Below are positions 9,774-35,629 of a DNA stretch of 64,000 nucleotides, in pieces. Source of the DNA: Cytobacillus sp. NCCP-133 (GTDB taxonomy: Bacteria; Bacillota; Bacilli; Bacillales; Cytobacillaceae); assembly GCF_026011715.1 (NCBI RefSeq), contig NZ_BRVM01000016.1, positions 1-64,000 of the forward strand, written 5' to 3'. Both the position numbers and the translations under genes were made by a program. Numbering within the stretch: the first letter of the stretch is position 1; each line of letters begins with the position of its first letter. The notes under the pieces were generated by a model. It saw only the letters and a list, made by a program, of their open reading frames with translations. It searched no databases and was not told where the DNA came from.

Positions 9774-9803
9774 AAAAAAGAGACAAGGATATCCCTTCTC
9801 TCT
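9774..9803 (-). terminator. intrinsic terminator, expression platform of the ZTP riboswitch
   Basis: Complement AGAGAGAAGGGATATCC / TTGTCTCTTTTTT: an imperfect stem with a T-run directly after the aptamer's CTGGGCAG. Binding of ZTP or ZMP is expected to prevent it forming. Confidence 0.85.
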
Positions 9804-9877
9804 GCCCAGACGACCGGCTATACATAGACGCAGCTCCCTTGCGGTTCATTCCGCATTGTCGTCAGTCACTGCGATTT
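9803..9877 (-). promoter_or_regulatory. ZTP riboswitch (pfl motif) controlling folD
   Basis: The minus strand carries the two conserved halves of the pfl/ZTP aptamer. The 5' part is GTGACTGACGAC; the linker holds a GCGG/CCGC hairpin and GGGAGC; the 3' part is GCCGGTCGTCTGGGCA. An intrinsic terminator follows. ZTP riboswitches sense ZMP/ZTP, the alarmone of 10-formyl-folate shortage, and usually control folD and purine genes. The call rests on sequence recognition; a covariance search with the Rfam pfl model would settle it. Confidence 0.9.
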
Positions 9878-9899
9878 GAATTCTTATTCTTATATTAAA

Positions 9900-9993: not shown

Positions 9994-10131
9994 ATAAGAT
10001 ATATTTGAGTTTTAAAGTTATTACCTAAAACAATGAAAGCCCTGCCTCTCTTCCATCCTTACGGCTCCTAGGCCGCGCCAGTGGGAATCAGGTTGATCGG
10101 ATGTGCATCCGACTTTGGTGCTCTCTGAGAT
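9970..10131 (-). ncRNA. candidate structured small RNA, about 160 nt
   Basis: A complete transcription unit with no protein-coding frame. A sigma-A promoter (10138-10166) precedes it and an intrinsic terminator (9966-9993) ends it. The 5' 90 bases are clearly more GC-rich than the surroundings and hold a TCGGAT-GCAC-ATCCGA hairpin and CGGC-CTAGGA-GCCG. It does not look like 6S, SRP, RNase P, tmRNA or a riboswitch I can name, and it ends before the folD promoter, so it is not a leader of folD. Confidence 0.6.
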
Positions 10132-27097: not shown

Positions 27098-27159
27098 AGC
27101 AAAATCACATGACTAACTAAGCGTTTAAAAAAGTTTTTTTGAACGCAGCACTATAATCA

Positions 27160-27354
27160 TTCCTTCTCCCATCCAGACTTTCACTGTCGGCTTTGGAGTT
27201 TCACCAAATCCACCGTTTTCATTAAAAATGCGCAAGCACCTTGCTCACCAAGGAACGCAAACATTCTGTCAATAACGAAACCGGGTCACGGACTTAGAGG
27301 GCGTACCCTCATTACCGCCGGTTGGGAATTTCACCCTGCCCCGAAGGAAATCCT
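27160..27354 (-). promoter_or_regulatory. FMN riboswitch (RFN element)
   Basis: The minus strand shows the RFN blocks in order: AGGATTTCCTTCGGGGCAGG, GAAATTCCCAACCGGCGGTA, AGTCCGTGACCC, GGTGAAACTCC and AAAGCCGACAGT, closing with TGGATGGGAGAAGGA. FMN binding lowers expression of ribDEBAH. A further hairpin, GCGTT / AACGC (27,121-27,146), follows the aptamer. Confidence 0.97.
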
Positions 27355-33631: not shown

Positions 33632-34756
33632 ATGGTGAAAACTTTATTAAAAAATGCACAAATTTATCCTGTAACTGCTGCTTCTTTTCACGGTGACGTT
33701 TCAATAGAGAATGGAAAAATAGCGAAGCTTGGCAGGAACCTTATAACCGAAGCAGATGTCAAGATTATTGATTGCCATAACCATCATCTTCTGCCTGGTT
33801 TTATAGATGTCCATACACATCTTGGTCTATATGATGAAGGAACGGGGTGGGCAGGCAATGATGCTAACGAAACCATTGAGCCGCTCAGCCCGCATATAAG
33901 GGCAATGGACGGTGTTTACCCACTGGACCCCGCTTTTTCCGATGCAGTGAAATATGGGATTACAACTGCCCATATCATGCCTGGCAGCGCCAATGTAATT
34001 GGCGGTACTACTTCTGTCATTAAAACTGCCGGCAAAAACATTCAAAAGATGCTTGTGCAGGAAACGGCTGGCTTAAAGATTGCCCTAGGGGAAAATCCCA
34101 AGCGGATCCACAGCCAGGGAAACAAGGATTCCATTACAAGAATGGGGATTATGGGTATGCTCAGAGAAGCCTTTTATGAGGCTATACATTGTGATAATCC
34201 TGAAGCGCTAAGATTTGCTCCACTCGTCAAAGCTCTAAAAAAAGAAATACCTGTAAGAATACACGCACATCGTGCAGATGATATTATCTCTGCCATCCGC
34301 TTTGCCGAGGAATTCAATCTTGATCTGAGAATTGAACATTGTACAGAGGGCCATTTAATTGCAGATGAATTGGAAGGGCTAAATTTAAAGGTTTCTGTTG
34401 GACCCACACTGACTAGGAGATCAAAAGTAGAGCTGAAGAACAAGACTTGGAAAACCTATCAGGAGCTGACTGAACATGGAGTGGAAGTTTCAATAACAAC
34501 TGATCACCCTTATACACCTGTTCAATATTTAAATATGTGCGCCGCAATAGCAGTCAGGGAAGGTTTATCAGAGCAAAAGGCTCTGGAGGGCATCACTATT
34601 TTACCTGCAAGGAACTTGAGAATTGACCGCCAGCTGGGGAGCATTGAAGAAGGAAAAGATGCTGATTTGGCATTGTGGACTCATCATCCATTTCACTTTA
34701 TAGCTAAGCCAAAATGGACGATGATCGCAGGAAGCATTGCATTCAAAGAGTCTTGA
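33632..34756 (+). CDS. amidohydrolase (imidazolonepropionase-like)
   Basis: 374 residues of the metal-dependent TIM-barrel amidohydrolase superfamily. Metal and catalytic motifs are DVHTHLG (about 61-67), HAHR (about 210-213), HCTEGH (about 236-241) and TDHP (about 288-291). The C-terminus returns to the small beta-domain (GSIEEGKDADLALW). The substrate is unknown; no neighbouring metabolic genes point to one. AAGGACGATATAA precedes the ATG. No clear terminator follows. Confidence 0.88.
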   Translation: MVKTLLKNAQIYPVTAASFHGDVSIENGKIAKLGRNLITEADVKIIDCHNHHLLPGFIDVHTHLGLYDEGTGWAGNDANETIEPLSPHIRAMDGVYPLDPAFSDAVKYGITTAHIMPGSANVIGGTTSVIKTAGKNIQKMLVQETAGLKIALGENPKRIHSQGNKDSITRMGIMGMLREAFYEAIHCDNPEALRFAPLVKALKKEIPVRIHAHRADDIISAIRFAEEFNLDLRIEHCTEGHLIADELEGLNLKVSVGPTLTRRSKVELKNKTWKTYQELTEHGVEVSITTDHPYTPVQYLNMCAAIAVREGLSEQKALEGITILPARNLRIDRQLGSIEEGKDADLALWTHHPFHFIAKPKWTMIAGSIAFKES

Positions 34757-34920
34757 TTTTTGTCGGAATCTGCTGGTGTTTTTTGACATAAAATCACAAA
34801 AAAAATAATCAAAAAACCTATTTCCTTTTTGAATTTTTTTTAGTATTATACCTTAAGTGAAGTGAATATTTCATTCCATAAATGACAGACAATCAAATAT
34901 CGGAAACGATAGTTATAGGG

Positions 34921-35068
34921 AAGGCAAATGGTGCGCCACCAGTTATCTGGTTCTAGTGGGTTCGATTCCCACCCCGAAATTTTTTGCACATTATAAAAAA
35001 TTTCGAGGGTGGACCGACGGCTCTATTTGGCATGGAGTAGGACTGTCCTCAGGTTGGAGGGATAACCT
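34921..35068 (+). promoter_or_regulatory. tRNA-like, mutually exclusive leader RNA upstream of the GNAT gene
   Basis: Directly visible: (1) TGGTG-CGC-CACCA overlapping CCAG-TTAT-CTGG (34,929-34,950); (2) GTGGG-TTCGATT-CCCAC (34,956-34,972), with the size and loop sequence of a tRNA T-arm; (3) a 17-bp stem with one bulge pairing 34,969-34,985 with 34,995-35,012, which uses the same CCAC bases and so excludes the T-arm; (4) AGGTT / AACCT flanking the GGAGG ribosome site at 35,051-35,068, ending at the ATG. The AGGGTGGACCG at 35,006 only partly resembles a T-box. A switch controlling translation is inferred. Confidence 0.6.
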
Positions 35069-35629
35069 ATGCTCAAGAAACGTGATCTTCACGACTGCCA
35101 TACTTTGTATGATTTAATGACGCACCCTGATGTCTTCCCTTTTGTTCGCCAAAAAGCCCACTCTTATGAAGAATTTATGTTTATAACAAAGCAGACAATC
35201 GAAGCAGAAGAACGCGGTGAATTAGTTTCACGCACTATTCTTGATGAATGGGGCGCTCCGATTGGGACGATTAATTTATTCGATATCCAGGACAATGCCG
35301 GCTTCTTAGGAACATGGCTTGGCAAACCATATCACGGCAATGGCTACAATAAAATGGCAAAGGATGCCTTCTTTGAAGAGCTTTTTTATGAAACCCGAAT
35401 TGAAACGATCTTTATGAAAATCCGAAAAGAAAATATCCGTTCGCAAAAAGCTGCTGAAAAGCTTCCTTATGTCATTCTTGCAAATGAAACAAGAAAGTCT
35501 GTATATGACCAGCTGAATGCAAACGGAGATATCTACAATCTGTATGAAATTTCGAAAGATTTATATACGCTGCATGTTATGCGGCATGGAGTTGCAGCCC
35601 AAGAATCGTCCCAATTACTGGAGGCTTAG
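35069..35629 (+). CDS. GNAT N-acetyltransferase
   Basis: 186 residues of the RimJ/RimL-like branch of GNAT. LGTWLGKPYHGNGYNKMAKDAF (about 91-112) is the acetyl-CoA-binding segment, and RKENIRSQKAAEKL follows as the usual helix. The product looks close to a Bacillus protein I recall as YkwB; its substrate is unknown. The ATG directly follows an AGGTTGGAGGGATAACCT hairpin, so the ribosome site lies in an RNA loop and expression may depend on the structured leader. Confidence 0.85.
   Translation: MLKKRDLHDCHTLYDLMTHPDVFPFVRQKAHSYEEFMFITKQTIEAEERGELVSRTILDEWGAPIGTINLFDIQDNAGFLGTWLGKPYHGNGYNKMAKDAFFEELFYETRIETIFMKIRKENIRSQKAAEKLPYVILANETRKSVYDQLNANGDIYNLYEISKDLYTLHVMRHGVAAQESSQLLEA

Follow-up and report, generated by a model that had tools for sequence, protein, structure and literature searches.

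A truncated tRNA-like cloverleaf as the probable sensor of a proposed translational switch ahead of a GNAT acetyltransferase gene

The GNAT acetyltransferase gene of Cytobacillus sp. NCCP-133 analyzed here is preceded by an mRNA leader that begins with a tRNA-like structure (TLS). The pairings of this leader suggest a cis-acting translational ON switch in which a truncated but otherwise tRNA-true cloverleaf would serve as the sensor; we regard this architecture and its ON direction as likely, and grade the effector separately below. The original prediction had placed a translational switch ahead of this gene, a reading that the exclusive pairings and the computed access to the Shine-Dalgarno (SD) sequence make likely, and had supposed that it might sense a tRNA or a tRNA mimic; the leader itself is the tRNA mimic.

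Results

Locus and regulated gene

The window, i.e., the whole stretch of 64,000 nucleotides that was analyzed (part of contig C16; genome size, 4.3 Mb), carries the leader between an amidohydrolase ORF (33632-34756) and the GNAT ORF (Table 1). The product was assigned to the GNAT class by its Pfam match together with its fold, which was modeled by AlphaFold2 at a pLDDT of 85.2. A fold search placed RimL and MccE, both enzymes of the translation sphere, among the structural neighbors and indicated no substrate, the matches being many GNATs. The name YkwB, which had been suggested for this gene, found no support and was not used in the open-access papers searched. The usual gene neighbors were the amidohydrolase along with two genes that we read from their sequences as epimerase-like and RecX-like.

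Ahead of the leader, the string TTAGTATTATAC occurs at 34840-34851 on the plus strand, and an identical string precedes the leader of locus L180. It could serve as a -10 element, which would leave approximately 60 nt of non-conserved RNA 5' of the TLS; a consensus scan called no plus-strand promoter around 34840-34851. Elsewhere in the window, an FMN riboswitch was matched at 27157-27352 on the minus strand (108.7 bits); it probably carries an insertion, since it spans 196 nt for a model of 138 positions. A ZTP riboswitch (9797-9879, minus strand) and a BsrC-family sRNA (10020-10106, plus strand) lie approximately 140 nt apart on opposite strands.

Table 1. Elements of the leader and the regulated gene, in window positions
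Feature	Position	Strand	Support
TLS, whole cloverleaf, first 58 nt of leader	34918..34975	+	Model R1; RNAalifold
Acceptor 5' strand GGG, paired with CCC 34973-34975 (3 bp)	34918..34920	+	Invariant: three pairs in 63 leaders, the two pairs held in alignment A3 in 105 rows
AA linker, tRNA positions 8-9	34921..34922	+	Invariant in 106 rows
D-arm GGC-AAATGGTGC-GCC; loop GG (34930-34931) corresponding to G18 G19	34923..34937	+	Three pairs, 100% paired, invariant or G-U
Short anticodon arm ACCAG-TTAT-CTGGT	34938..34951	+	Two-sided changes at 5/6 tested pairs
Variable loop TCTA	34952..34955	+	YYTA in alignment; target of the f49 competitor
T-arm GTGGG-TTCGATT-CCCAC	34956..34972	+	100% paired; T-loop invariant in 106 rows
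CCACCC, 3' side of T-arm and acceptor, alternative partner of 35007-35012 (OFF)	34969..34974	+	6/6 Watson-Crick pairs in 100/115 leaders, at least five in 112
P2 5' strand GAAATTTTTT, paired with 34995-35004	34976..34985	+	6/10 pairs changed on both sides
P2 3' strand AAAAAATTTC	34995..35004	+	6/10 pairs changed on both sides
P3 5' strand GAGGGTGG, paired with 35043-35050 (ON)	35005..35012	+	97.8% of cells paired; 8/8 pairs including G-U in 99/115 leaders
Switching strand GGGTGG, common to extended stem (OFF) and P3 (ON)	35007..35012	+	Pairing counts
P3 3' strand CTGTCCTC; anti-SD TCCTC at 35046-35050	35043..35050	+	
AGGTT-(SD)-AACCT hairpin	35051..35068	+	Window only; not kept in 70 loci (by eye)
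SD GGAGGG; GAGGG 35057-35061 pairs with anti-SD	35056..35061	+	Helix conservation; SD accessibility
GNAT acetyltransferase ORF, 186 aa (PF13302), regulated gene	35069..35629	+	Pfam match, GNAT fold

Structure of the tRNA-like element

Read as RNA, the TLS consists of a GGG/CCC acceptor, an AA linker at tRNA positions 8-9, a D-arm GGC-AAAUGGUGC-GCC, an anticodon arm ACCAG...CUGGU, a YYUA variable loop, and a T-arm, with the arms in canonical tRNA order. The T-arm hairpin, which had been recognized from the window sequence, is present, and the element around it is real; its start lies at 34918 instead of the 34921 originally given, which cut off the acceptor GGG. Once these bases are included, 34918-34955 complete the cloverleaf in canonical order, and the circularly permuted tRNA that had been proposed was rejected.

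The leader resembles genuine tRNA genes in its arm order, 5-bp T-stem, TTCGATT T-loop, D-loop GG, and short variable loop, and thus combines a cloverleaf with a D-loop GG and a T-loop of the form TTCRA. It differs from them in that the 3-bp acceptor runs straight into P2 and that there is no CCA and no usable anticodon; neither a 7-bp acceptor nor a CCA addition site was found, and ARAGORN called no tRNA in the window. Position 8 is A instead of U and position 21 is G instead of A. Compared by eye with the tRNA-His of the same genome, the TLS has the same arm order, a D-loop of 9 versus 10 nt, and a T-arm matching at 16 of 17 positions, whereas its acceptor and anticodon arm are shorter. A D-loop/T-loop contact would be expected to form an elbow as in tRNA.

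The leaders compared comprised 71 sequences, namely that of the window and those of 70 loci obtained by a scan with the GNAT protein. Among the 70 loci, a near-invariant block ran from GGG (34918) as GGGAAGGCAAWTGGTGCGYCACC, followed by the variable loop and then CTGGTYYTAGTGGGTTCGATTCCCACCCC, and the anticodon loop differed in length. Pairing was scored in alignment A1, which holds 63 of the 71 leaders after removal of duplicates, and in alignment A3, whose 106 rows are the 105 distinct sequences among 160 leaders found by a regular expression plus that of L162, shortened by hand; L203 and L204 fall outside the expression.

In the 106 TLS rows, 98.0% of the cloverleaf cells were paired, and two-sided changes occurred at six pairs (58 cells), values reached by none of 500 shuffles, although such shuffle counts overstate significance because the leaders are related. 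The covariation in related genomes that the original prediction had called for was therefore found, with two-sided changes in the anticodon arm, in P2, and at one T-arm pair, which was G-C in 98 of the 106 rows and A-U in the other 8 (seven from family f49, described below, and L152 from the first order). The innermost tested anticodon pair was not formed in 32 of 105 rows. Acceptor and D-stem are nearly invariant and barely vary, so that they yield no covariation signal. RNAalifold, run without an input structure, returned the D-, anticodon, and T-arms and did not draw the acceptor. In the divergent members L203 and L204, inspection by eye showed UUUUAG/CUGAAA in place of GGG/CCC, altered on both sides with a one-base register shift, and L203, which belongs to f49, has the T-arm GCGGG/CCCGC and the T-loop TTCAATT.

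Mutually exclusive helices and access to the Shine-Dalgarno sequence

P2 is common to two alternative structures. In the putative OFF structure, it is lengthened to a 17-bp extended stem with a single bulged A (35006), which joins 34969-34974/35007-35012 to 34975-34985/34995-35005; this is the stem excluding the T-arm that had been predicted, and it is present as drawn. In the 63 leaders, 99.1% of cells were paired in the ON structure (TLS, P2, and P3) and 97.2% in the OFF structure (17-bp stem and anti-SD/SD helix). The anti-SD anticipated close to the ribosome site was likewise found, its TCCTC pairing with GAGGG in 92.1% of cells; this was the least kept helix, and 18 of the 63 leaders could not form its middle pair. 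The further hairpin that was said to hold the SD in its loop and to end at the ATG exists in the window (35051-35055/35064-35068, ATG at 35069), but inspection of the 70 loci by eye found it not conserved.

Competition for the switching strand was counted in 115 of the 119 leaders outside f49, with L044, L081, L090, and L161 left out. Complete pairing with the P3 partner, which is mostly CTGYCCTC, drew on G-U pairs in 90 of 99 leaders and on two or more of them in 79. The Watson-Crick fit to CCACCC together with the wobble fit to the P3 partner is what would be expected of a strand that serves two exclusive partners. GGGTGG was altered in 14 of the 115 leaders, with changes in the partner in, e.g., L057 and L066.

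The stretch originally singled out (34921-35068) folded at -51.6 kcal/mol, compared with a mean of -40.9 kcal/mol for shuffled sequences (z = -3.0; none of 200 shuffles equally stable). The extended stem was the energy minimum in 105 of the 122 leaders with TTCGAGGGTGG, and enforcing the TLS was on average 7.2 kcal/mol worse by nearest-neighbor energies, which contain no tertiary terms. SD accessibility was computed for the 100 distinct leaders that contain both an SD and TTCGAGGGTG; as these leaders are related, the numbers are not independent. Mean accessibility was 0.47 with the TLS enforced and 0.21 with the extended stem enforced. The gain exceeded 0.2 in 55 leaders and was at most 0.2 in 45, no leader lost more than 0.2, and enforcing the TLS lowered access by 0.196 in L037, L048, L049, L070, L102, and L112. 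In the window, the effect was small (0.316 with the TLS, 0.268 with the extended stem), and its AGGTT/AACCT hairpin formed in the TLS-enforced fold. By these computations, exclusive folds would act on an expression platform as they do in riboswitches.

The preference for one fold by approximately 7 kcal/mol would also suit a constitutive structural leader that sets expression level, mRNA stability, or a temperature response with no specific effector, as would the origin of the loci, which come from Anoxybacillus and Thermolongibacillus, both thermophilic genera, as well as from other genera. We nevertheless consider such a leader improbable, for the near-total invariance of the unpaired core (AA linker, D-loop, variable loop, and T-loop) would be unexpected in a stability hairpin or a thermometer.

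Some leaders depart from the common layout at their 3' end. In L158-L160, no recognizable SD was found before the start codon either by script or in the sequences, and the TLS and P3-like strands were kept. A scan for SD helices and terminators, to be taken as a hint only given its uneven detection of arms, covered 134 SD-bearing leaders; it found a helix of at least 5 bp in 95 of them, 26 of which had a T-rich tail. L059, L062, L063, L069, L093, and L149 have a T-run between the anti-SD/SD hairpin and the start codon, resembling an intrinsic terminator with the SD as its 3' arm; control might also be transcriptional in these six.

Conservation and genomic distribution

The element was carried by all 71 leaders, ahead of the same GNAT gene. 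Over 52 positions, the mean pairwise identity of the TLS in these leaders was 99.2%, compared with 37.8% at the fourfold-degenerate sites of the gene that follows, and this conservation is decisive evidence against chance.

Model R1, built from 36 TLS rows, matched 226 of 299 genomes sampled from the order; without G269, where the match was a tRNA-Gly, 225 remained, and these scored well beyond real tRNAs. A search of the same 299 genomes with the GNAT protein was positive in 229. Both TLS and gene were thus found in 225 genomes, the gene alone in four (G053, G096, G175, and G258), the TLS alone in none, and neither in 70. Exactly one strong TLS copy was present in 224 of the 225 genomes, and among the 22 genomes with at least two R1 matches, which were searched again, only G097 had more than one. 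In a class sample of 299 genomes, strong matches beyond the order were confined to family f49, and in a 150-genome sample of the order of f49, 23 genomes had the TLS, in each case preceding the GNAT gene, which brought the total to 248 sampled genomes. A phylum sample of 299 genomes added a single match, a tRNA-Asn. All 26 weak R1 matches checked coincided with tRNA or tmRNA genes, and 23 spanned the whole model. The D-, anticodon, and T-arms, P2, P3, the exclusive pairings, and the one gene per genome can be regarded as established at the level of sequence comparison.

At 71 of 72 TLS places checked, the window copy included, the GNAT gene lay 3' of the TLS. The exception, L150 (G097:C23:12174-12240), is an orphan leader that contains the TLS and the switch strands and is not followed by an acetyltransferase gene; its genome has three TLS copies. 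Five gene copies were found without a TLS (L170, L175, and L177-L179). L170, a second, paralogous acetyltransferase copy in G209, has kept GGAGGG and lacks the TLS, which the other G209 copy possesses.

The similarity to real tRNA and the orphan leader would be accommodated by a degenerate tRNA gene, or the attachment scar of a mobile element, that came to lie in a leader by chance. The TLS is, however, conserved above the coding sequence, shows compensatory changes, and has a fixed gene association, and neither blastn against phage records nor an exact-pattern search of viral contigs detected a copy. On its conservation, compensatory changes, and gene association, we rejected a decayed tRNA or scar, which we judge to be extremely improbable.

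A different competitor in family f49

Most f49 leaders have lost the T-arm competitor: at least five Watson-Crick pairs are formed in 8 of 20, versus 102 of 108 elsewhere. A segment after P2 is instead complementary to the variable loop of the TLS, with at least six Watson-Crick pairs in 8 of 20 leaders versus 1 of 108 elsewhere; L195 was misparsed in this count, and its competitor was read in the comparison that follows. CTAGGA was present downstream in all seven rows with TCCTAG in the TLS, YTAGA in 7 of the 13 rows with TTCTAG, and none were crossed. The variable-loop competitor was absent in 6 of the 20 f49 rows. A base difference in the TLS is therefore mirrored by a matching downstream difference; as it splits the rows into just two groups, the matched change was probably one event. 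Predicted competition against the TLS is preserved in most f49 members by these other means.

Comparison with known RNA classes

The Rfam screen that had been proposed as a check returned no family for the leader (Rfam 15, gathering thresholds). With E values up to 10 over 34757-35120, the tRNA clan was represented by one listed match, a tmRNA T-arm fragment that covered 17 nt and scored 10.5 bits; a weaker match overlapping it, to a family of the same clan, had been filtered. In eight loci screened likewise, the only match was to Staphylococcus sRNA 414; it lay in L204, outside the leader. Membership in a known Rfam family was rejected on the lack of a leader match in the window and these eight loci.

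The closest precedent is the yjdF (azaaromatic) riboswitch, RF01764. In the available text of PMC9142559, yjdF is a tRNA-like aptamer in Bacillota leaders that controls SD access and is ON when folded; its T-loop side alternatively pairs with the SD in the OFF state, the liganded tRNA-like fold activates translation, the J1/2 linker is purine-rich, and acetyltransferases are mentioned among the genes controlled. Here, sequence and computation likewise point to a tRNA-like four-way junction controlling the SD. The leader differs from yjdF in its canonical D-loop, T-loop, and T-stem, its linker of just AA, and its two extra helices (P2 and P3). For yjdF itself, the available part of the crystal structure report describes no direct L2b-L4 contact, the proposed D-loop/T-loop contact (PMC10987639). 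The RF01764 model had no match at gathering in the window, none up to E = 10 in 34757-35120, and none in the genome, one of 41 genomes being matched; membership in yjdF was rejected, the covariance model missing both leader and genome.

The yjdF work also bears on what might read the TLS. According to the available text of PMC9142559, the yjdF aptamer bound 70S ribosomes when liganded, and translation rose 2- to 6.3-fold when tRNAs were grafted into mRNAs. A tRNA-binding factor, such as a T-loop modifying enzyme, the L1/E-site of the ribosome, RNase P, or another elbow binder, might recognize the TLS, its occupancy reporting the state of tRNA or of the translation machinery. The TTCGATT T-loop is invariant in the 106 rows even where the host tRNAs compared differ from one another, the D-loop GG is kept, and one copy accompanies one gene in 224 of 225 genomes, all of which would suit this reading. 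However, a 3-bp acceptor with no CCA makes aminoacylation and canonical RNase P cleavage unlikely, the bases 5' of GGG show no conservation, and the T-loop of L203 is TTCAATT; we regard such a sensor as unlikely.

The leader shares with T-box leaders (RF00230) the Bacillota host, the tRNA theme, and an AGGGTGG string, whose UGG had been likened to a T-box bulge. The RF00230 model did not match the leader; elsewhere in the genome it produced 20 matches of at least 61 bits, of which 12 exceeded the cut-off and none lay on contig C16. In contrast to the unpaired UGGN bulge of T-boxes, UGG here is helix-paired in both folds (P3 and extended stem) and covaries, e.g., as TAG/CTA in L057. With no model match and UGG paired and changing with its partner, T-box membership was rejected.

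Translational operators such as that of E. coli thrS also use tRNA mimicry in an mRNA leader, and thrS is controlled through synthetase binding: ThrRS binds its own tRNA-like operator, a model for autogenous control. The available text of PMC7373986 mentions the binding of tRNA-like structures by ThrRS and lists the 1989 thrS paper. The present leader differs in that its gene encodes an acetyltransferase and its anticodon arm is variable, which makes anticodon recognition unlikely. An autogenous circuit, in which the GNAT binds its tRNA-like leader because its own substrate is tRNA-like or tRNA-bound, would fit the close pairing of TLS and gene in single copy per genome and the presence of RimL and MccE, of the translation sphere, among the near folds. 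Yet a stabilized TLS would be ON, so that binding would give positive instead of negative feedback, and five gene copies lack a TLS; we therefore doubt this circuit strongly.

Within the open-access literature searched, no paper was recognized as describing the leader, which supplements and subscription papers, outside that search, may list. A word search of the available text of the motif surveys PMC11109978, PMC8632094, PMC2864571, and PMC6429828 did not recognize it. The leader looks like an undescribed switch within the known tRNA-like leader switches.

Discussion

In the ON state of the proposed translational switch, the folded TLS, with its T-arm closed, its GGG/CCC acceptor formed, and its elbow in place, would leave P2 as a separate hairpin; GAGGGTGG would pair with CTGYCCTC as P3, and the SD GGAGGG would be free. 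When the TLS unfolds, CCACCC would pair with GGGTGG and thereby extend P2 to 17 bp, and the released CTGYCCTC would cover the SD and turn translation off. We infer the direction, folded TLS being ON, from this chain of pairings and the computed SD access, and it parallels yjdF. The OFF fold would be the default, its computed energy being lower by approximately 7 kcal/mol, and the TLS would therefore have to be stabilized by something, presumably elbow tertiary contacts and an effector.

As effector, we tentatively favor a small molecule that would bind within the tRNA-like core, with the GNAT acetylating that molecule or a relative, possibly as detoxification. Our ranking of effectors, which is a guess, places a small molecule handled by the GNAT first, a component of the translation machinery second, and the GNAT itself third.

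A bolder reading, which we put forward as a doubtful possibility, is that of an unreported RNA class in which the canonical tRNA elbow (G18 G19 and TTCGATT) is a reversible mRNA sensor, with different competitor strands in two orders, read by some part of the translation apparatus or by a compound with affinity for tRNA cores, such as polyamines or a translation inhibitor. If this were true, the cell would sense in cis whether a tRNA can fold and be bound, and would switch on an acetyltransferase in response.

To our knowledge, few natural tRNA-like leaders are known in bacteria. Its full cloverleaf, its compensatory changes, its occurrence in 248 of the genomes sampled, and its single target gene make the leader a clean model in which to ask if a tRNA fold acting in cis is able to sense something and drive translation. 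The leader also provides a handle on a conserved acetyltransferase.
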